Below, one piece after another: positions 2,308-27,842 of a stretch of 33,551 nucleotides of DNA. The first letter of the stretch is position 1, and the number at the start of each line of letters is the position of its first letter. The stretch comes from an uncultured SAR324 cluster bacterium. GTDB lineage: Bacteria > SAR324 > NAC60-12. The stretch lies in NCBI GenBank assembly GCA_902564345.1, contig CACFAY010000016.1, positions 1-33,551 of the forward strand, given 5' to 3'. A model generated the notes under the pieces. That model did not search any database, was not told the DNA's origin, and saw only the letters and a program-made list of their open reading frames with translations. The translations under genes and the position numbers were made by a program.

Positions 2308-4317
2308 ATGGCCGATTTTGGTACAATTTCATTAATGGCCGCACTGGCCGTTTGTGTTTACGGATCTGTAATACCTCATTTTGGTGTAAAAACAAATAAT
2401 TGGAATCTAATCCGTTCTGCTCAAAATGCTAGCATTTTATCATTTTTCCTTATATCAGTTGCATCATATGTCTTAATTTATTCGCTTGTAACAAGCGATT
2501 TCAGTATATTTTACGTCTGGAGCCATTCAAGTACTGACATGCCCCTTATCTACAAAATAACGTCGTTTTGGGGGGGGTTAGAAGGTTCACTATTATTTTG
2601 GATACTGGTTCAGAGTTTTTTTGCAATGATCGTAGCTTTCCGCTATCAATATTCAAATAGAGAAATAATTCCATATGTAATTACTACATTAAATGCAATT
2701 TTGGCTTTTCTTCTTGTATTGCTCATTGGTTGGTCTAATCCACTTGATTTACAGGCAATAATACCAAAAGAAGGACAAGGGCTTAACCCACTTTTGCAAA
2801 ATCCAGCCATGGCAATTCATCCTCCATCATTGTACCTAGGTTTTATAGGGTTTAGTGTGCCCTTTGCCTTTGCAATGGGGGGACTGATACGTGGGAAACT
2901 TGACAACGAATGGGTTCTTACAACACGTCGATGGACATTAATGTCCTGGTATTTCCTATCCGCTGGATTGATACTAGGAGGACAGTGGGCATATGAAGAA
3001 CTTGGATGGGGTGGCTTCTGGGCATGGGATCCTGTTGAAAACGCTGCATTAATGCCATGGTTGACTGGTACTGCATTTTTACATTCTGTAATGATACAAG
3101 AAAAACGTAATATGTTAAAGATTTGGAATGTGGTACTTATCATTACTACATTTGGATTAACCATTGTTGGAACTTTTCTTACTCGTTCAGGAATAATTAA
3201 TTCAGTGCACTCTTTTACCCAGTCTGAAATTGGACCTGCATTTTTAGTTTATTTGGCACTGGTTTTAGTAGCAGGATTTGCATTTCTTTTTAAAAGGATT
3301 CAATTACTCGAGTCAGATTATAAAATTGAATCAGTATTATGTCGTGAAAATGTGTTTCTTGCTCAAAATATATTACTCGTGGGCATTGCCTTCACAGTAT
3401 TGTTGGGCACAACATTCCCTCTACTTGCCGAAGCAGTTAGGGGCACAAAACTTTCAATTCAAGCTCCATTCTTCAATACAATTACAGCACCAATGGGTTA
3501 CGCTTTATTAATTTTAATGGGTATCGGCATGCTAATTCCCTGGCGAAGATCGAGCTTGGAAAATTTTCGCAGAAACTTTCAAAATCCATCAATTTTCGCC
3601 ACCCTTGGCACGATTTTTTTAGTTTGGTTCTTCTATGGTAAAAGTTTGCAATGGGGTGTTTATATCATTTTGTGGTCAACAATTTTTGTAACCTCAACCA
3701 TATTATTAGAACTTATCTTAGCCACTCAAATGAAAGCTAAACAAACAAAAAGTAATTTCATTATTGGATTTTATTACGTAATCTTAAGAAACAGAAGACG
3801 TTATGGTGGCTTGCTAATACATTTTGGAGTTGTATTAATGTTCTTAGGATTTGCAGGTACATTTTTTGGTATAGAAAAAGATCTAACACTTGAAGTTGGG
3901 GAATCAAAAGAAATCGGTAACTATCGACTAGAGTTTAAAAATATTGGTGAGTTTATGTCAGGTAATGCTAGACACAGGGCAGCAATTATCAATGTTTATG
4001 ACTCAGATAATAATTTTCTTGAAATACTGAAACCAGCAAAAAGTTTTTATCCTACTCAGCCTCAACCTCTTACCGAAGTTGCTATTCGCAGAACATTTCT
4101 TGAAGACCTTTATCTAATCTTTTCAAGCGAAAATGCAAAAGAAGAAAATTCTATCACAATTAAAGTTTATATAAACCCTCTCGTAGGCTGGGCATGGGCT
4201 GCTTTGCCGATTTTCACAATTGGTATTGGCATTTGCTTGACTTATAGACCAAAAAGCTTGATAGCTCATGAATTAGTCCATAAAGAGCGCTATATGGCCA
4301 TTAATAAATCATTATAA
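2308..4317 (+). CDS. ccmF: Cytochrome c-type biogenesis heme lyase subunit CcmF
   Basis: Multi-TM protein with WWD-domain signature WGGFWAWDPVENAALMPWL, plus TFGLTIVGTFLTRSGIINSVHSF and a C-terminal YRRYGGLLIHFGV-like segment. Confidence 0.95.
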   Translation: MADFGTISLMAALAVCVYGSVIPHFGVKTNNWNLIRSAQNASILSFFLISVASYVLIYSLVTSDFSIFYVWSHSSTDMPLIYKITSFWGGLEGSLLFWILVQSFFAMIVAFRYQYSNREIIPYVITTLNAILAFLLVLLIGWSNPLDLQAIIPKEGQGLNPLLQNPAMAIHPPSLYLGFIGFSVPFAFAMGGLIRGKLDNEWVLTTRRWTLMSWYFLSAGLILGGQWAYEELGWGGFWAWDPVENAALMPWLTGTAFLHSVMIQEKRNMLKIWNVVLIITTFGLTIVGTFLTRSGIINSVHSFTQSEIGPAFLVYLALVLVAGFAFLFKRIQLLESDYKIESVLCRENVFLAQNILLVGIAFTVLLGTTFPLLAEAVRGTKLSIQAPFFNTITAPMGYALLILMGIGMLIPWRRSSLENFRRNFQNPSIFATLGTIFLVWFFYGKSLQWGVYIILWSTIFVTSTILLELILATQMKAKQTKSNFIIGFYYVILRNRRRYGGLLIHFGVVLMFLGFAGTFFGIEKDLTLEVGESKEIGNYRLEFKNIGEFMSGNARHRAAIINVYDSDNNFLEILKPAKSFYPTQPQPLTEVAIRRTFLEDLYLIFSSENAKEENSITIKVYINPLVGWAWAALPIFTIGIGICLTYRPKSLIAHELVHKERYMAINKSL

Positions 4318-4447
4318 AAATATCAAAATCTAATTTTCTTGTAAATTATGGATAATTATAAGATCAGAAATCTACCCACAGATATCTAAAAAATATTAAG
4401 ACCTATTTATTAAAAATATAATTGTAAAATTAAAACTATCATGAAAA

Positions 4448-5740
4448 TTGGATAAAAAAATAGCAGTGATTGGCAGTGGCATAGCTGGCCTAACAGCTGG
4501 ATTATTATGCCGTGATTCAGGTGCAGAAGTCACAATCTTCGAAGCAAGTTCGAAACGTGGTATGGATCTAAATAGTCTTAACTTAGATCTTGATGATCAA
4601 AATTCAGGCTATGTAGATATACCATTGAGGGTTATGAGCCCTCATGCTTGGCCGTTAACTTTGAAAATGTGTGAAATTCTTAGTGTGAAAACTTTTGAAG
4701 TCGACACACCTGTTGCATGTAGTTGGCTTGATGAAAGTACATGGTTCAGAAGCAGCAAATTTCGCCTAGGCTCTAAATTGATTCCATGGGTTCCAGTACG
4801 TTATCTTTTTCAATCTGAAACTTACCAGATTTTATTGGGATTTTTTAAGATTTTAAAATTAAATCCAGATAATTTTCCTCCAGAATTGACTGTTAAGGAC
4901 TTTATTGAACAACTAAACTTTGCACCTCTTTTCTCGAAGGGATTTTTATTTCCTCTCTTAACTACTATTTGTACCTGTGATGAAAAATCACTTGAAAAAT
5001 GGCCTGCTATTCAGATTCTTGATTTGATGAAAAAAATTGTTTTTGGTGATAGATTGCGGAGAATTGCAGGAGGAACAAAAGCCTTAGCAGAAAAACTTGG
5101 TATGGGTCTTAATTGGCAAAGTGGTGTCTATATAAAAAATTTGTCAGAGAAATCTAAAGGAATCTTTTTAAGTTCTAAAAATATGAATTATGGTCCGTTT
5201 GATAATGTGATATGCGCAGTGCAGGCAAATCAACTTAAATTTCTTCCAAATAGTTATGACCCTGAATTAAAAATTCTAAGATCATTCCCATATACCTCTG
5301 GCACTCTATGGATCCATAGAGATATGCGCTTCATGCCAAAAAATAAAAATGACTGGTCAGCACTGCACTATCAGGTAAAAAAAGATTTCAGTAGCTCAAT
5401 GTTCAGTGTTTGGGTTAATCCTATAGAACCATCTATTGCGAGACATGAGCCAATTCTTCAAACATGGAACCCAATTATTGAACCAAGGCAAGAAAAAGTT
5501 TACAAAACTTTAACTATGGAACGTGCAGTTGTCTCTGGAGAAAATCAAAAATTATTACAACAACTTAATGACGTGCATCAATTACCAAATAGAAAGGTAT
5601 TTTTCTGTGGGTCCTATGCTGCACCAGGAGTCCCTCTACTTGAATCTGCAGTGCAATCAGCAATCACAGTTATTAACCAACTAGGTCTTACTCCTCTTAA
5701 TCGAGAAATATATGAAATGTGTTCTCCCAAAATGCATTAA
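4448..5740 (+). CDS. FAD-dependent oxidoreductase (amine oxidase/protoporphyrinogen oxidase-like fold), TTG start
   Basis: N-terminal Rossmann motif IAVIGSGIAGLTAGLLCRDSGAEVTIFEAS; C-terminal VFFCGSYAAPGVPLLESAVQSAITV FAD-binding motif. Confidence 0.75.
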   Translation: MDKKIAVIGSGIAGLTAGLLCRDSGAEVTIFEASSKRGMDLNSLNLDLDDQNSGYVDIPLRVMSPHAWPLTLKMCEILSVKTFEVDTPVACSWLDESTWFRSSKFRLGSKLIPWVPVRYLFQSETYQILLGFFKILKLNPDNFPPELTVKDFIEQLNFAPLFSKGFLFPLLTTICTCDEKSLEKWPAIQILDLMKKIVFGDRLRRIAGGTKALAEKLGMGLNWQSGVYIKNLSEKSKGIFLSSKNMNYGPFDNVICAVQANQLKFLPNSYDPELKILRSFPYTSGTLWIHRDMRFMPKNKNDWSALHYQVKKDFSSSMFSVWVNPIEPSIARHEPILQTWNPIIEPRQEKVYKTLTMERAVVSGENQKLLQQLNDVHQLPNRKVFFCGSYAAPGVPLLESAVQSAITVINQLGLTPLNREIYEMCSPKMH

Positions 5741-13865: not shown

Positions 13866-15137
13866 TTATCCTAATTTCATGTTTTTAATACCTATAATTC
13901 GGTCGTATAGAATGAAAAGGAAAAGCACAATTACTAATAAAATTACTCCGATAGAAGAACCTAAACCCCAATTTAGTGAGTTTGATATATGATACGCAAT
14001 CCTGTTGCTTATAAAAGTTCCTGAACTTCCTCCAACAAGTGCTGGAGTAATATAGTAACCAATTGCCAAAATAAAAACTAAAATTGAACCTGCCCCAATA
14101 CCTGGCCCTGTATTAGGAAAATATATCCTCCAGAATGCAACCCAAGGATGAGCTCCCAAAGAAATGGCTGCCCGCAAATATGATTTTGGAATAGTTTTCA
14201 TCACACTAAATAAAGGGAGTATCATAAATGGCAAAAGAATATGTGTCATGGCTATAACTGTACCCGTAGCATTATGAATCATTGCCAAACGGCCGTCTTC
14301 AGATATAATACCAATCAAAATCAAAAAATCATTAATAACTCCTTCCTGCTGTAATAGTGCTATCCAGGATGTAGTACGAACAAGCAAAGAGGTCCAGAAT
14401 GGTAGAAGCACAAAAATAATTAAAATATTACTGATTCGAGTAGGGACATTTGCCAGCATATAAGAGACAGGGAACCCGATAACAAATGTTAAAAAAGTAA
14501 TCAAGGTGCTCAGCAAAAGGGTTCTAAAAAATAATTTTATGTAGATGCTATCCTTCTCTGGTAATGGCTCAACTTTACCATTAGTGAATTTTCTCGTGAA
14601 ATCAAATGCTGCCAAGTAGTATCCATCTGTTAGGTCAGATGAGTTTTGTTTAATTACTTGCCAAGTATAAATATCAGCCCAGCGTTTATCTGTCTTAATT
14701 AGAGCTTCCTTATAAGGGGGCTTATCTATTTTTTGAACTTTCCTACCGGCTTTCCTGAACAAACTTGCAAAACCAGAACTTTCATAATTAAGACGCGTAC
14801 CAATTTTAGTATGCTCTCGTGCCTTTTTAGCTTTTTTTATATCATCTACCATTGAAGCATAAACAGCTTCATCAGGTAATTCATTTGCATATGGATCCCA
14901 GTTTTTTAGTGACTCTACTGTATTAGGCAAAATTCTATTAACAATAGAATTATCTATAGATAGAAAAAGCATATCTACTATTGGAACAATAAATCCAATC
15001 ATAATAAAAAACAGCAACGGGAAGACCATCATAAATGCCACAAATTTACTGCGCCGCTGGGCTCTAGCCAAGCTTGTCTTGAGAGGTATTCCGTCAGCGG
15101 TGACTAAAATGTTTTTATCAGGGGATTGTTCCATCAA
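13866..15137 (-). CDS. ABC transporter permease, PotB-like, with long insert after TM1
   Basis: Permease EAA-like motif AAISLGAHPWVAFWRIYFPNTGPG. 423 aa, with about 120 polar residues between the first TM and the remaining TM block. Confidence 0.87.
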   Translation of the reverse strand: MMEQSPDKNILVTADGIPLKTSLARAQRRSKFVAFMMVFPLLFFIMIGFIVPIVDMLFLSIDNSIVNRILPNTVESLKNWDPYANELPDEAVYASMVDDIKKAKKAREHTKIGTRLNYESSGFASLFRKAGRKVQKIDKPPYKEALIKTDKRWADIYTWQVIKQNSSDLTDGYYLAAFDFTRKFTNGKVEPLPEKDSIYIKLFFRTLLLSTLITFLTFVIGFPVSYMLANVPTRISNILIIFVLLPFWTSLLVRTTSWIALLQQEGVINDFLILIGIISEDGRLAMIHNATGTVIAMTHILLPFMILPLFSVMKTIPKSYLRAAISLGAHPWVAFWRIYFPNTGPGIGAGSILVFILAIGYYITPALVGGSSGTFISNRIAYHISNSLNWGLGSSIGVILLVIVLFLFILYDRIIGIKNMKLG

Positions 15138-15260
15138 TTCAGAAAGGAAACTAAATTTTGGGTATCTGTTTTACGAAATATTTGACACTGGTTCTTTCAC
15201 CATTTCTAAAGACTTTTTAAAATTTGACGTGAATTATATATACGCAAATTTCAAATGAAC

Positions 15261-15291
15261 AAGCCGGGGAAATATTGATTCCGCCCGGCTT
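15261..15291 (-). terminator. Stem-loop between binding-protein and permease genes (attenuator/mRNA-stability element)
   Basis: AAGCCGGG (15261-15268) pairs with CCCGGCTT (15284-15291), 8 bp, 15-nt loop, located between the PotD-like stop and PotB-like start. Confidence 0.6.
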
Positions 15292-15322
15292 ACGATAAAT
15301 CGTATATGTTCAAATAAACTTT

Positions 15323-16420
15323 TTACTTTAACAACCATGCATTGAACTTGGCATCAAGATCGTCACGATTATCTGCCCAAAACTCATAGTTGAAGAGTAA
15401 AGTAGTTTTTGCATTTTCAGGATCTGTAGGCATATGCGGTGCCATTTCAATTCCCAAAGAAGCATGCTTTCCTACAAGAGGTGCAGATGAAGCACGCGTT
15501 GGACCATAGGATATGAACTTAGCCTGATCTGCCAGTCTTTGTGTATCGGTAGCAAAGCGAAGATACTTCATAACTTCAGCTTTATTCTTACCACCACTCG
15601 GTACAACCCATCCATCTAGATCAAAAACCTGCCAATCCCAAAGCATGGCTACAGGTTGTTTTTGTTCCTCAATTAGAGCAAACAATCGTCCATTGTATGT
15701 TGAACCTACTATTACCTCACCATCAGCTAATAACTGAGGAGTTTGAGCTCCTGCAGTCCACCAAACGACATTGCTTTTAATGGTGTCTAATTTAGCCAAA
15801 GCTCTAGTTACTCCAGCATCTGTTCCTAAGACATCATAAACCTTAGCTGGAGCAACACCATCACATATAAGTGCCCACTCCATATTATTTATTGGTTTTT
15901 TCTCTAAGGAACGTTTACCTGGGAAATTTACCAAGTCAAAAACATCACATACACTTGTCATTGGTCTTGAAACTTTATCCTTCCGATATCCGAAAGTAGT
16001 CGAATAAACGATCTGTGGAATAAAACATGGAGAAACAATAAAATCACCAAAATCATCTGTCGCCGAAGTTCCGTCAGGAGCAGATGCTAAAACTCTGTTA
16101 TGATCGATTTCATCTACCAAACCTTCATCACAAAGCATCATAGCATCTGAAGCAACTGCATCTACCAAATCCCATGTAGTGTTTCCAGCCTGACTCATAG
16201 CCCTCAATTTGGCTACAGCACTTCCTGCAGAATCATCATTAATTATCTTGATCCCAGAATTTCTCTTCATGTATGGGGCATGATAAGCATTTTGCTGACT
16301 CGCAGTATATGCTCCACCCCAAGAAACAACAACCAATTCAGTTGCCGCCATTACTTGGCCTACTAATCCAGCCATTGCCATCACAGCTGATGCCGTCATA
16401 ACACGCAAGAAAGTATTCAT
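15323..16420 (-). CDS. ABC transporter substrate-binding protein, PotD-like
   Basis: Signal peptide MNTFLRVMTASAVMAMAGLVGQVMA, then ELVVVSWGGAYTASQQNAYHAPYMK...; extracellular solute-binding family, inside a Pot cassette. Confidence 0.9.
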   Translation of the reverse strand: MNTFLRVMTASAVMAMAGLVGQVMAATELVVVSWGGAYTASQQNAYHAPYMKRNSGIKIINDDSAGSAVAKLRAMSQAGNTTWDLVDAVASDAMMLCDEGLVDEIDHNRVLASAPDGTSATDDFGDFIVSPCFIPQIVYSTTFGYRKDKVSRPMTSVCDVFDLVNFPGKRSLEKKPINNMEWALICDGVAPAKVYDVLGTDAGVTRALAKLDTIKSNVVWWTAGAQTPQLLADGEVIVGSTYNGRLFALIEEQKQPVAMLWDWQVFDLDGWVVPSGGKNKAEVMKYLRFATDTQRLADQAKFISYGPTRASSAPLVGKHASLGIEMAPHMPTDPENAKTTLLFNYEFWADNRDDLDAKFNAWLLK

Positions 16421-21698: not shown

Positions 21699-21805
21699 AT
21701 ATAATTTTTAAAAATATTTTTTTTCGTTTCAAACGAGAGTGAGTTCCCATAGCTCAACTTTTAGTAAGCATTTAAAGATTTTTATTATTGAAATCTATAA
21801 TTGCC

Positions 21806-21926
21806 TGCTGCATTTAGTATTATTCAATTGCAGCATATTACAGTTTGTGCTTATATTTGTCGATGGTTCAATGTTGGTAAGTAAGCACAAAAATTTTTGG
21901 ATATTTGAACCAAAAATTATTTTTAA
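21806..21926 (+). promoter_or_regulatory. Structured mRNA leader (interleaved and alternative helices) upstream of the sugar-binding protein gene
   Basis: Helix P TGCTGCA/TGCAGCA (21806-12/21829-35). Helix A TTTGTGCTTA/TAAGCACAAA (21844-53/21882-91). Helix B TGGTTCAA/TTGAACCA (21864-71/21905-12). Helix C AATTTTTGG/CCAAAAATT (21892-900/21910-18) followed by ATTTTTAATT. All arms are perfect complements. Confidence 0.5.
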
Positions 21927-21965
21927 TTCAATTTAAGTAAATAAAATCAGAACATAGGAGAAAAT

Positions 21966-23231
21966 ATGTTAGTTAAATTAGAAAAGTTAATTATAGGATT
22001 CATTTTTGCCTTTAGTACAGTAAGTACTGCAATGGCAGGTGGAGAGGCTGAAGTGCTTCATTGGTGGACTTCAGGTGGTGAAGCAAAAGCATTACAGGTC
22101 CTTAAGGATGATTTTGCTAAAAAAGGAGGAACTTGGAAAGATATGCCTGTTGCAGGTGGCGGTGGAGATGCTGCAAACGTTACTCTTAAGTCCAGAATAG
22201 TCGCAGGCGATCCTCCTACAGCTTCACAAATAAAAGGTCCTACTATTCAAGAATATGATGAAGAGGGTGTAGTTGCTCCTTACCACATTCATGCGGTAGC
22301 TAAAGCTGAGAATTGGGATTCTTTATTAAGTTCTCAGGTTTCAAATCATATGAAGTGTGATGGGTTCACTAAGTACTGTGCTGCTCCTGTAAACATACAC
22401 AGAATTGACTGGTTCTGGGCGAATAAAAAGGTTCTAGATTCTCATGGACTGAAAATGCCAACTTCTTGGGATGAATTTAATGCAGCAGCAAGCAAGTTGC
22501 AATCAGCAGGAATAATTCCTTTTGCCCATGGTGGTCAGCCTTGGCAGGATGCTACGGTATTTGAGGCAGTACTTCTTGGAATTGGTGGAAATGAATTCTA
22601 CCATAAAGCAATTGTCGAATTAGATATGAATGCTTTAAGTGGCCCTACTATGGTTAAAGTCTTCGACCAAATGCGTAAACTTCAAGGATTTACAGATAAA
22701 GGAATGCCAGGGAGAGATTGGAACGTGGCTACTGCAATGGTCATGAATGGTAAAGCTGCTTTCCAAATTATGGGAGATTGGGCTAAGGGAGAATTCTCCA
22801 ATGCTGGTTTAAAACCAGGTGTTGACTATTATTGTCTTCCCACTCCATCTGACCACGGATATTTGTACAATGTTGATAGTTTCATTTTTTACGGAATGAA
22901 AGGGAAAAGCAAAATCGATGGTCAAAAAGCACTTGCTAGCTCTATAATGGGTAAGAATTTCCAGAAAATTTTTAATATTTATAAGGGCTCAATTCCTGCT
23001 CGTCTTGATGTTCCAATGGATGAATTTGATATGTGTGCCAAGGGATCTGCCTCTGATCTGAAGTATTCTGCTATGACAGGTGGACTGCTACCAAGTTTTG
23101 CGCATGGAATGGCTCTTCGTAACGCCCAAAAAGGAGCGATGCAGGACGTTATCACAGAGCATTTCAATTCCAACATGTCTTCTCATGAAGCAGCTAGGAG
23201 ATTAGCAGATGCAATTCAGGCATCATTGTAA
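21966..23231 (+). CDS. Sugar ABC transporter substrate-binding protein (GtsA/glucose-mannose type)
   Basis: Signal peptide ..VSTAMAGG; EVLHWWTSGGEAKAL; RIDWFWANKKVLDSHGLKMPTSWDEF; PFAHGGQPWQDATVFEAVLL; AAFQIMGDWAKGEF. Confidence 0.93.
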   Translation: MLVKLEKLIIGFIFAFSTVSTAMAGGEAEVLHWWTSGGEAKALQVLKDDFAKKGGTWKDMPVAGGGGDAANVTLKSRIVAGDPPTASQIKGPTIQEYDEEGVVAPYHIHAVAKAENWDSLLSSQVSNHMKCDGFTKYCAAPVNIHRIDWFWANKKVLDSHGLKMPTSWDEFNAAASKLQSAGIIPFAHGGQPWQDATVFEAVLLGIGGNEFYHKAIVELDMNALSGPTMVKVFDQMRKLQGFTDKGMPGRDWNVATAMVMNGKAAFQIMGDWAKGEFSNAGLKPGVDYYCLPTPSDHGYLYNVDSFIFYGMKGKSKIDGQKALASSIMGKNFQKIFNIYKGSIPARLDVPMDEFDMCAKGSASDLKYSAMTGGLLPSFAHGMALRNAQKGAMQDVITEHFNSNMSSHEAARRLADAIQASL

Positions 23232-23355: not shown

Positions 23356-24234
23356 ATGCTCTACTGGCTGCAAAGGAACCTTCCAAAAATTGTCATCTCA
23401 CCATCTTTTGCTGTTATTATTTGGTTTGTTTACGGTTTTGTGCTTTGGACTTTTTATGTCTCATTCACAAAGTCAAAGATGTTGCCCAGATACGAATTCT
23501 GGGGAATTGATCAGCACTTCCGCCTTTGGTCAAATCCTCGTTGGTTCAATGCAGTTGAAAACCTGCTAATTTTTACCATACTTTTTGTTTTAGTTTGTTT
23601 ACTGATTGGGATAATACTTTCAATTTTGTTAGATCAAAAGATTAGAACTGAAGGTTTTTTAAGGACAATCTACCTTTACCCTATGGCGCTATCATTTATT
23701 GTAACAGGGACAGCATGGAAGTGGATACTTAATCCTACTATGGGTCTTGAAAAGCTCTTAAATGACTGGGGATTTACAGAATTCACTTTTGACTGGCTCG
23801 TAAACAGGGATATGTCCATATATACCATTGTGATTGCAGCTGTCTGGCAGTCCTCGGGATTTGTAATGGCACTTTTTCTGGCTGGACTGCGCTCAATTGA
23901 CGATGAAATTGTCAAGGCTGCCAAAATTGATGGAGCCAGTCTCTACAGTATTTATTTAACCATAATCCTTCCGATGATGCGTCCAGTTTTCATGAGCTCC
24001 ATTGTCATTCTGCTACATATCTCGATAAAAAGTTATGACCTAGTGGTCGCTCTTACTGCGGGAGGACCAGGAATATCTTCAGACATGCCTGCTGTATTCA
24101 TGACTCAAATGGCTTTTCATCGCAGTGAAATAGGTCTAGCTTCAGCAAGTGCTGTAATGATGTTTCTCACAGTACTGGCTATTATTGTCCCTTACCTTTA
24201 TTCAGAGCTGAGAAGGCAGGATGCAAACTCTTGA
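23356..24234 (+). CDS. Sugar ABC transporter permease (GtsB-like)
   Basis: MalF-type permease: AAKIDGASLYSIYLTIILPMMRPVF EAA motif; follows the GtsA-like gene. Confidence 0.9.
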   Translation: MLYWLQRNLPKIVISPSFAVIIWFVYGFVLWTFYVSFTKSKMLPRYEFWGIDQHFRLWSNPRWFNAVENLLIFTILFVLVCLLIGIILSILLDQKIRTEGFLRTIYLYPMALSFIVTGTAWKWILNPTMGLEKLLNDWGFTEFTFDWLVNRDMSIYTIVIAAVWQSSGFVMALFLAGLRSIDDEIVKAAKIDGASLYSIYLTIILPMMRPVFMSSIVILLHISIKSYDLVVALTAGGPGISSDMPAVFMTQMAFHRSEIGLASASAVMMFLTVLAIIVPYLYSELRRQDANS

Positions 24235-25126
24235 TTTCCAAAAGATGGAAAACATTGAACGTTCTTCGGCCCGTAAACGTATTTTTTATCGTTGGCTACT
24301 TTTTATAATTCTTGGAATCTTCGCCCTATACTATCTTGCGCCACTTTATGTAATGATTATCACTTCTCTTAAGACCATGGAAGAAATAAGGCAGGGCAAC
24401 TTAATGACTTTACCCAGAGAAATAATTTTCGATTCATGGATTACCGCATGGAGCGGTCGTGGAGGAATTGATGCTGGTAATGTATTTCTTCGCCCTTTTT
24501 TTTGGAACTCATTAAAAATGGTAGTTCCTGCAGTGGCGATTTCAACTTTCTTTGGTGCGCTTAATGGATACGCTCTCACCAAGTGGCGATTTAAAGGAGA
24601 CAATATTATATTCCTTTTGTTCCTTTTCGGTTGTTTTATTCCATATCAAGCTATTCTGCTACCCATGTCTAGAACGCTGGGTTTTCTCGGAATATCAAAT
24701 TCGATCAGCGGATTGGTCCTTGTTCACACAGTATACGGATTAAGCTTTACAACTCTATTTTTTCGTAATTACTATATCTCTATTCCTGACGAAATGATCA
24801 AGGCTGCTAGGATTGATGGAGCAGGATTTTTCAAAATTTTCTTCAAAGTACTAATACCAATATCTGCACCTATAGCAGTAGTGACAGTTATCTGGCAGTT
24901 TACAAATATATGGAATGATTTTCTTTTCGGTTCTTCTTTCTCATTTGGAGAAGCCGCACCCATCCAAGTAGCACTCAACAATATGGTTCTTACAAGTACC
25001 AGTGTTAAAGAATATAATGTAGATATGGCCGCGGCATTCATAGCGGGAATACCAACCCTGCTAGTTTATATTCTAGCAGGGAAATACTTTATCCGGGGAC
25101 TAACAGCAGGTTCAGTAAAAGGATAA
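24221..25126 (+). CDS. Sugar ABC transporter permease (GtsC-like)
   Basis: MalG-type permease: AARIDGAGFFKIFFKVLIPISAP EAA motif, C-terminal KYFIRGLTAGSVKG. Alternative start at 24245. Confidence 0.9.
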   Translation: MQTLDFQKMENIERSSARKRIFYRWLLFIILGIFALYYLAPLYVMIITSLKTMEEIRQGNLMTLPREIIFDSWITAWSGRGGIDAGNVFLRPFFWNSLKMVVPAVAISTFFGALNGYALTKWRFKGDNIIFLLFLFGCFIPYQAILLPMSRTLGFLGISNSISGLVLVHTVYGLSFTTLFFRNYYISIPDEMIKAARIDGAGFFKIFFKVLIPISAPIAVVTVIWQFTNIWNDFLFGSSFSFGEAAPIQVALNNMVLTSTSVKEYNVDMAAAFIAGIPTLLVYILAGKYFIRGLTAGSVKG

Positions 25127-25174
25127 GAAAGACTATATTTAGAATTGTAATGCTTACAAATATTAAATAAAAAA

Positions 25175-26275
25175 ATGGCAACATTAAAAGTTATTAACCT
25201 TACAAAAAGTTTTGGAAATACTAAGGTACTTAAGCAAATTAATCTTAAGGTAAATGATGGTGAATTTATTGTACTACTTGGACCTTCAGGATGCGGGAAA
25301 TCAACTCTTCTCAATATGATTGCTGGTCTTGAGACTGTTGACGATGGAGAAATACTAATTGATGAATACGTGGTTAATCGTGTTGAACCGAAAGATCGCA
25401 ACATAGCAATGGTCTTTCAGTCATATGCTTTATATCCAGCGATGACAGTTCGTAATAACGTCATTTTTGGCCTTAAACAACGAAAAATCTCTAAAGAGCA
25501 TATAGAAAAATCATTAAATCATTTTTCAAAAATGCTCAAAATTGACCAACTCTTAGACCGCAAACCAGCACAACTTTCTGGAGGACAGCGGCAACGTGTA
25601 GCAATGGGACGGGCATTAGTGCGTGAACCACAAATTTTTCTCTTCGATGAACCATTATCCAATCTTGATGCAAAACTTCGTGTAGAAATGAGGCACGAAA
25701 TCAACAAATTGCACGAAAGCTTGGGAACGACAATGATTTACGTGACCCATGATCAAGTAGAAGCGATGAGCCTTGCTACTCGAATAGCTGTCATGAACGA
25801 AGGCATCATCCAACAGATTGGGACTCCTCAGGAAATTTATGATAAACCTAATAGCATTTTTGTTGCTGACTTTATCGGTTCTCCTGCGATAAACCTTATT
25901 CAAGGCAAATTTTACAAAGATGGAACTATATCCTGTTTTATTCCCGAACAGCAAAAAGAAAATGTTAAAATTTCTCTTAACGACTATTCATTTATTTCTG
26001 AACCAAAAGAAGGTCAGGAAATCATTTTGGGATTTCGGCCAGAACATTTAAATCTTCCAGATACTTCTCTAAATTCTCAAATGGCAGTTTCACTCAAACC
26101 TTCACTCATTGAACTTACTGGATATGAAAAGGAAGTTAGTTTTGAATTTTATGGAAACGAAATCACCGGAAGGCTGCCACGTCATATCAATATAGAATTA
26201 GGCAAGCCCATCTCACTAAGCATAGACCTGTCAGAAATCTCGATCTTTGACAAATCAAGCACAATGCGCATTTAA
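25175..26275 (+). CDS. Sugar ABC transporter ATP-binding protein (GtsD/UgpC/MalK family)
   Basis: Walker [12 protein letters not shown], signature [19 protein letters not shown], Walker [18 protein letters not shown]-terminal regulatory domain LGFRPEHL. Confidence 0.95.
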
Positions 26276-26441: not shown

Positions 26442-27842
26442 ATGTTAAGTACAAAAATTGTTTGCACCATTGGTCCAGCAAGTGATACCTCTGAAGTATT
26501 AGAAGACCTAGCTGAGGCAGGAATGAATGTCGCTCGATTAAATTTCTCGCATGGCACTCATACTTCGCACAAAAAAATTATTAAGCAAATTCATGAATTG
26601 AACCAAAGCAGAAAATTCCCTATTGCAATTATGCTTGATACACAGGGACCAGAAATCAGGACTGGCAATGAAAAGAGTGCTCTTAAGTCAAAAGAAATAG
26701 TTACTGTTAGCTGCCCACCATTTAAGGAGAATGAAGGAAATATTCATGTAAATTACCCTGCTTTAAAAAGTGATCTGAAACCAGGAAACTATATTTCTCT
26801 AGACAGTGGATTGGTAAAATTAAAAGTTATTGGAAAACACAAAAAAGGACTTAAGTGTGAGGTTATAGACGGTGGCATCGTAAATGGTCACAGACATGTG
26901 AATTTACCAGGTACTGTAGTTAAACTTCCTGGTATAACCAAAAATGACAAGAGAGACATACTTTTTGGTATAAAACATAAAGTTAATTTTATTGCCCTTT
27001 CTTTTGTACGTAATTCTGAAACAATTAAGGAAGTAAGAAAACTATTGGGAAAACATGCTGAGCATACAGAGATAATAGCTAAAGTTGAAAATTTGGAAGG
27101 TGTCGAAAGACTTGAAGAAATAGTTAAAGAAGCTGATGGAGTCATGGTAGCAAGAGGAGATTTAGGAATAGAAGTAGAGTTGGAAGAAGTTCCACAGATT
27201 CAAAGACGAATAGCATTTTTGTGTGCCAAATATGGAAAACGTTCAATTGTTGCGACGCATATGCTGGAATCAATGATTGAACATCCAGTACCAACGAGAG
27301 CAGAGGTTACAGATGTTGCAAATGCAATATTTGAAGAGTCAGATGCAATAATGCTTTCTGGAGAAACTTCAATTGGGAATTATCCTGTTCGTTCAGTAGA
27401 AACATTGAAACGTATAGCAAAACACACAGAAATTTTTCCAGGAGTAAATTTTTCTAAAAATTTGATTATGGAAAAAAATGGGCAACATCTTGCTGCATCT
27501 GCAATCCAAATTGCTTCAGATTTAAAAATTAGAGCAGCTGTTGTAATCACTCGCAATGGTCGTGGTGCAAGATATCTCTCAAATCTTAGACCACACGGAA
27601 TTATTATCTACTCATTTACTGAAAATGCTGATGTTCTCACTTCAAATGTATTGTACAGAGGGGTTTATCCTTTTCTTCTAAAATTAAAGAAAAACCCTGA
27701 AGATAATATACAGGACGCACTAAAGATGCTAAAAGATACCAGAAATTTTAATTCTAATGAGCAAGTAATAGTCTTAGCCAATATTCTCACGGGAGAGGGT
27801 TTTAACACTTCTCTGCAGGTACGCACTATTCCTTCTGATTGA
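26442..27842 (+). CDS. pyk: Pyruvate kinase
   Basis: TKIVCTIGPASDTSEVLEDLAEAGMNVARLNFSHG; GVMVARGDLGIEVELEEVPQIQRR; ATHMLESMIEHPVPTRAEVTDVANAIFEESDAIMLSGETSIGNYP. Confidence 0.96.
   Translation: MLSTKIVCTIGPASDTSEVLEDLAEAGMNVARLNFSHGTHTSHKKIIKQIHELNQSRKFPIAIMLDTQGPEIRTGNEKSALKSKEIVTVSCPPFKENEGNIHVNYPALKSDLKPGNYISLDSGLVKLKVIGKHKKGLKCEVIDGGIVNGHRHVNLPGTVVKLPGITKNDKRDILFGIKHKVNFIALSFVRNSETIKEVRKLLGKHAEHTEIIAKVENLEGVERLEEIVKEADGVMVARGDLGIEVELEEVPQIQRRIAFLCAKYGKRSIVATHMLESMIEHPVPTRAEVTDVANAIFEESDAIMLSGETSIGNYPVRSVETLKRIAKHTEIFPGVNFSKNLIMEKNGQHLAASAIQIASDLKIRAAVVITRNGRGARYLSNLRPHGIIIYSFTENADVLTSNVLYRGVYPFLLKLKKNPEDNIQDALKMLKDTRNFNSNEQVIVLANILTGEGFNTSLQVRTIPSD

Follow-up and report, generated by a model that had tools for sequence, protein, structure and literature searches.

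Comparative Evidence for a Conserved Three-Hairpin Leader RNA Directly Before the gts Sugar Transporter Operon of SAR324 Bacteria

The gts Operon and Its Surroundings

The window, that is, the whole stretch of 33,551 nucleotides analyzed here, comes from a genome of the SAR324 cluster (Lambdaproteobacteria), a widespread and largely uncultured marine group. A sugar ABC transporter operon lies on its forward strand. The first gene (21966..23231, + strand) encodes a gtsA-like sugar-binding protein with a SBP_bac_1 domain (Pfam), and the nearest solved structure to its product was 8hqq, a sugar ABC binding protein (chain 8hqq_A, E 4e-206). Two sugar ABC permeases and an ATPase of the MalK/UgpC type follow (gtsB, gtsC and an msiK/ugpC-like gene; 23356..26275, + strand; Pfam and NCBIfam), and the next gene on the same strand encodes pyruvate kinase (26442..27842, + strand; Pfam and NCBIfam). 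The top NCBIfam matches of the binding protein and permeases were archaeal glucose transporter subunits, and because all of these matches were below the cutoff, the transporter is described as putatively glucose-type. A Shine–Dalgarno-like AGGAG (21956..21960, + strand) lies outside every hairpin of the leader. The start codon at 21966 had been placed correctly in the earlier note, as had the ATTTTTAATT after helix C.

The structure of the 14 gene leaders of the window was compared, and the gts leader ranked second (z −3.0; median approximately −0.6). The intergenic region 15135-15330 on the − strand, located between two minus-strand genes, was also strongly structured (z −3.6). It contains a GCCGGG...CCCGGC hairpin without a clear U-run, which is possibly the terminator of the upstream gene.

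Helices of the Window Leader

Four helices, P, A, B and C, had been described in the leader. All of them were exact Watson–Crick helices at the positions given below, and they were the only uninterrupted helices of at least 7 bp within 21800-21930. Hairpin P1, previously helix P, spans 21806..21835 (+ strand), with arms at 21806-21812/21829-21835 and a 16-nt loop; this exact helix is the positional counterpart of the covarying P1 of the relatives (CGGCU...AGCCG). Hairpin P2 spans 21844..21891 (+ strand) and consists of a lower stem (21844-21854/21881-21891), which contains the exact 10-bp helix A (21844-53/21882-91, + strand), and an upper stem (21857-21865/21872-21880), which is present in the MFE structure; P2 covaries in the relatives. 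Helix A had been set against helix B as a complete element. Helix A is real, but the upper stem, which closes its 28-nt loop and also competes with helix B, had been overlooked. Helix A continues into this second stem, and hence the unit is one long hairpin, P2. Its upper strand and loop include TGTCGATGGT (21858..21867, + strand), which carries the loop core UGGU, is identical in two relatives (L044 and L046) and occurs as a single copy in both strands of the window.

The 5′ arm of helix B, TGGTTCAA (21864..21871, + strand), lies in the apical loop of P2 and is the exact complement of 21905-21912. The 3′ arm, TTGAACCA (21905..21912, + strand), overlaps the loop and the 3′ arm of hairpin C and aligns by eye with TTGAAACCAT, the 5′ arm of P3 in L040. 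Hairpin C (21892..21918, + strand; arms 21892-21900/21910-21918) is an exact helix of −5.2 kcal/mol that is followed by ATTTTTAATT, with 5 T among the 8 bases after the stem. By its position, it is probably the counterpart of P3 in the relatives. An alternative window P3 starting at the homologous TTGAACCA arm was rejected because its energy was only −1.1 kcal/mol.

According to dinucleotide shuffles of this 131-nt stretch (21800-21930), a 10-bp helix arose in 3% of cases, an interleaved pair of helices of at least 8 bp in 1%, and both in 0.2%; the MFE z of the stretch was −2.9. The single-sequence energies were −21.5 kcal/mol for the nested fold (full P2 and C) and −14.9 kcal/mol for A and C without the upper stem. 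The structure of this single sequence is unusual, but it is no proof by itself since one stretch was picked from the whole window, and the comparative evidence is what carries its reality.

Covariation Among the Leaders of Relatives

Within this genus and family, twelve GtsA genes shared at least 77% identity, and eleven of them, the window included, had a usable leader. Nearly all of these leaders formed three hairpins, P1, P2 and P3, in identical order directly before the gts operon, followed by the Shine–Dalgarno site and the start codon. P1 of the relatives was CGGCU...AGCCG or a variant; P2 and P3 are exemplified by GCAGAUGUCGA UGG UCGGCAUCUGU and by GGAAACCAU...AUGGUUUUC, respectively. 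The mean shuffle z of the 11 leaders was −3.7 for the sense strand and −2.9 for the opposite strand, with weak values in L039 (−1.1) and L045 (−1.6). A covariance model built on six leaders recovered two leaders outside its training set, namely, L038 (38 bits) and L124, the contig of which ends inside the leader, with E values of 1e-5 and 1e-7 (per genome).

In the eight-leader alignment, 93.4% of the pair cells were standard pairs, compared with at most 48.8% after the partner was slid by 1 to 3 columns; the eight rows were fitted to the model, which somewhat favors the structure. Double-sided changes were found in 8 pairs across all three helices, a count reached by 0/500 shuffles, and P2 had changes on both sides in 4/11 pairs among the relatives. 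Moreover, the MAFFT alignment of six of the eight rows preceded any structural constraint, and the consensus fold of these six likewise showed the identical three hairpins, with five doubly changed pairs. Stem drift made a MAFFT alignment of the full set of 11 leaders unusable, and the covariation is therefore limited to the eight leaders that could be aligned by the model. Within the stems, G-U was counted 30 times and A-C 2 times, indicating that selection acts on the sense-strand RNA.

The hairpin structure was better conserved than the sequence across the leaders, and those of the window, L038 and L039 were not alignable by sequence despite GtsA proteins that were more than 90% identical. 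The UGG of the P2 loop and its flanking U and C were invariant in 7 of the relatives' leaders, while much of the P2 stem varied. Apart from this loop, no conserved unpaired segment was found across the leaders. Compensatory changes in the arms of A, B and C had been put forward as the test of the structure; they were present for the hairpins but not for helix B. At the level of sequence comparison, these results demonstrate a conserved sense-strand three-hairpin leader RNA (P1–P2–P3) directly before the gts operon of SAR324 bacteria.

The lower P2 stem, P1 and P3 of the window are entirely unlike those of the relatives in sequence. The two best model matches in the window both fell on the gts leader, at 13.7 bits (E 0.23, opposite strand) and 12.0 bits (sense strand), neither of which was significant. 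The model alone is thus insufficient; in our judgement, the window leader probably belongs to the element because its position and hairpin order match those of the relatives and TGTCGATGGT is identical in the upper strand and loop of P2. In the window, P2 directly abuts P3, and in the relatives approximately 10 nt lie between the two. Hence, coaxial stacking of A on C, which had been suggested by their adjacency, is no conserved feature.

Genomic Context and Distribution

The model gave one significant site per genome, and a scan of 41 genomes of the order showed no other at E ≤ 0.05 and no regulon elsewhere in these SAR324 genomes. The leader was always just upstream of gtsA wherever the contig reached that far, and the gene before it differed. 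In five genomes, it was a Peripla_BP_4 sugar-sensor-like gene, and P1 began 2-21 nt past its stop codon. In the window, L038 and L039, it encoded a branched-chain amino-acid-type binding protein, and by eye from the sequence it was carbonic-anhydrase-like in L042 and oxidoreductase-like in L045. A decayed end of the sensor gene was recognized by eye before the intact leader in L040 and, less clearly, in L042. The leader stays beside gtsA while the upstream gene changes or decays, which ties it to gtsA. The earlier proposal that the sugar ABC operon has a leader with a functional structure was thus borne out, since the hairpins covary and remain with gtsA under differing upstream contexts.

Further observations were made on the neighboring genes. 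In L040, where the remnant just before the leader is the 3′ end of the Peripla_BP_4 sensor gene, a branched-chain amino-acid-type binding-protein gene approximately 0.3-1.6 kb upstream of gtsA (locus 3420-4880) is split in two frames. In L044 (402-4869), L041, L043, L046 and L048, the genes beside gts encode a Peripla_BP_4 protein, a CHASE5 HWE/HisKA_2 histidine kinase, a response regulator and a protein of 197 aa that matched nothing in Pfam. This cluster is likely a sugar-sensing two-component system, and it is absent next to gts in the window.

The window leader used as a DNA query gave no long match besides itself, and no relatives of GtsA were found in viral contigs. Inspection of the DNA before GtsA in Rhodobacteraceae, in MAGs of Pelagibacteraceae and Bdellovibrionales and in other groups revealed no such leader. 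The predicted leader is restricted to this clade, at the level of one genus or family, and to one operon. The Pelagibacteraceae and Bdellovibrionales MAGs (L049, L050 and L051) encode a GtsA with 73-75% identity to that of SAR324; the leader is missing from L049 and L050, and L051 contains no upstream DNA. The GtsA of these three is probably explained by a horizontally transferred transporter or by errors in binning.

Pairing Between the P2 Loop and the P3 Arm

In the relatives, the GAUGGU of the P2 loop is able to pair with ACCAUU in the 5′ arm of P3, and 97% of 36 cells were standard pairs. Variation was seen in five of the six pairs, in each case confined to one side, with 5 further pair types; no double compensatory change in the contact was found in the alignment of relatives. 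In a scan of every 6-bp column pairing that the six full leaders allow (3,486), the contact ranked first outside P1–P3 (approximately 3,470 pairings). It is possible in 8/9 complete leaders of the genus (core GGU x ACC), taking the form GGUA x UACC in L039, and is absent in L038. Helix B of the window has the same core, UGGU x ACCA, and the same register as the contact of the relatives and is extended on the other side.

The duplex energy of the contact was compared with shuffles, and the p value was 0.012 for the window and 0.10 to 0.86 for the others. In the relatives, this energy was within the range of shuffled and species-swapped partners. Moreover, pairing with the 3′ arm of P3 also constrains the 5′ arm, and since that 3′ arm is similar to the P2 loop, part of the signal could be indirect. 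The interleaved pairing B of the earlier note gained moderate support, as it can form in nearly all cells and is top-ranked, but it lacks a double change and its energies in the relatives are no better than those of the controls. The predicted contact is not established, and the chances that it is real in most of the genus are about even.

Attenuation and Alternative Explanations

The leader probably adjusts the level at which the operon is expressed. The reading that we prefer, with a probability of roughly 0.4, is weak cis-acting attenuation through competition of the P2 loop for an arm of P3. The attenuator would set the read-through into gtsA, and P3 would act as a weak intrinsic-terminator or pausing hairpin. 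The UGGU of the P2 loop would capture the ACCA on the 5′ side of P3, as helix B in the window, while the 3′ arm of P3 is still to be transcribed; this capture would block the formation of P3, and RNA polymerase would continue. When P2 is fully zipped, P3 would form. The balance may be shifted by transcription speed, a protein or a small molecule.

In the window, approximately 47 nt separate the end of P3 from the start codon, and the Shine–Dalgarno site is free. Direct control of ribosome binding is thus unlikely, and an effect on transcription or stability is favored. Furthermore, the invariance of the P2 loop suggests a partner, for which the P3 arm is the best candidate. The P3 stems are AT-rich (−5 to −13 kcal/mol), with 2-6 T in the 8 bases after the stem and U-tracts that are short or interrupted. 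P3 is hence at best a weak terminator or pause. Helix C had been likened to a weak terminator; the AT-rich stems, the broken U-tracts and a terminator scan that found none in the window leader make this a weak case. No convincing promoter match was found for the leader. The simple energies favor the nested fold in the window and were counted against the attenuator. A stricter form, namely, a pseudoknot attenuator class specific to SAR324 with a sugar-derived signal governing the capture of the P3 arm by the P2 loop, is improbable.

The main rival to the attenuator is an ompA-type 5′ mRNA stabilizer, a real but minority possibility, in which hairpins near the 5′ end guard the abundant mRNA of the binding protein from RNase E-type decay, and pairing matters while sequence does not. 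Where a sensor gene lies upstream, the element would be an intercistronic stabilizer or processing element, in keeping with the start of P1 2-21 nt after the upstream stop codon in the sensor-bearing genomes. The stems drift fast in sequence while the structure stays, the linkers are AU-rich, P3 has weak terminator features, the Shine–Dalgarno site is left free, and the first gene encodes a periplasmic binding protein, which is normally needed in excess. All of these suit a stabilizer. However, a plain stabilizer needs neither the P2 loop that is invariant in 7 leaders nor a kept loop–P3 contact. The stabilizer therefore accounts well for the drift and the weak terminators but not for the constant loop.

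A plain terminator, or set of 3′-end hairpins, of the upstream gene without a regulatory role for gts would agree with the position of P1 directly after the Peripla_BP_4 stop codon in five genomes and with the terminator-like P3 of some leaders. It is nevertheless unlikely, because the element persists where the sensor gene has been lost or has decayed (L040, L042) or another gene has taken its place (window, L038), P1 and P2 are superfluous for termination, and the interval from P3 to gtsA in the window gave no promoter-like match on the sense strand. A metabolite-binding riboswitch would have a pseudoknotted aptamer for a sugar, sugar phosphate or aldonate. A riboswitch had been considered earlier, and the operon context, the interleaved helices and the conserved loop speak for it. 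The unpaired sequence outside the P2 loop varies and leaves no conserved unpaired core, and the leader diverges so fast that those of the window, L038 and L039 are unalignable at more than 90% GtsA identity. With the restriction to one genus or family and one operon and with no Rfam match, the riboswitch is very unlikely and the earlier suggestion was not upheld. Least credible of all are DNA-level operator palindromes for a regulator such as the nearby response regulator. The palindromic form of P1 and P2 and the histidine kinase and response regulator found close by in several genomes speak for them, but the stems change with pairing kept and tolerate G-U and not A-C (30:2), which points to single-stranded sense RNA.

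Under the preferred attenuator, the P2 loop x P3 contact is a concrete prediction that can be tested at two sites. A structure-conserved leader before a glucose-type transporter would offer a handle on the control of sugar uptake in SAR324 cells.

Comparison With Known Leader RNAs

No Rfam family matched in the window at the gathering threshold, and a permissive search across 15 loci of relatives gave nothing at E ≤ 1. For the leader alone, the best hit was an unrelated miRNA model at 17.4 bits (gathering threshold 90). The earlier impression that the leader falls outside the known riboswitch classes agrees with these empty searches of the window, the leader and the 15 relatives. In the literature searched, no paper on a sugar-operon leader RNA in SAR324 was found, and the sugar-related content of two structured-RNA surveys with marine sequence (PMC2704228, PMC2864571) describes no such element.

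The leader would work like a pseudoknot or loop-capture attenuator, in which a terminator-like hairpin immediately ahead of the first gene is in competition with another leader hairpin and its loop. It differs in that its terminator is weak and its contact has moderate comparative support. With ompA-type stabilizers, it shares consecutive leader hairpins, a free Shine–Dalgarno site and the precedence of structure over sequence; the stabilization of ompA mRNA by 5′ stem-loops is established according to work cited in PMC3997798 and PMC7509114. It differs from them in the conserved P2 loop and the third, terminator-like hairpin. Similar to H-type pseudoknot riboswitches such as SAM-V (PMC6061858), it is a marine bacterial leader with predicted interleaved helices, but it has neither a conserved ligand-binding core nor an Rfam match.

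The livK-associated hairpin of Candidatus Pelagibacter ubique, as outlined in PMC2704228, likewise lies near transporter genes of a marine bacterium and is followed by a U-tract in about half of the cases; it is, however, a single hairpin at amino-acid transporter genes in another clade. The msiK motif, the leader of a sugar ABC ATPase gene, is also a structured RNA leading sugar ABC transporter genes. As described in PMC2864571, it is a long hairpin with an 11-nt bulge, the base of which includes the ribosome-binding site, whereas the SAR324 leader has three hairpins, precedes the binding-protein gene and leaves the ribosome-binding site free. Among the sources covered, the msiK motif is the nearest named sugar ABC leader, with a different anatomy, and the predicted gts leader of SAR324 is classed as a lineage-specific, uncatalogued structured leader RNA.
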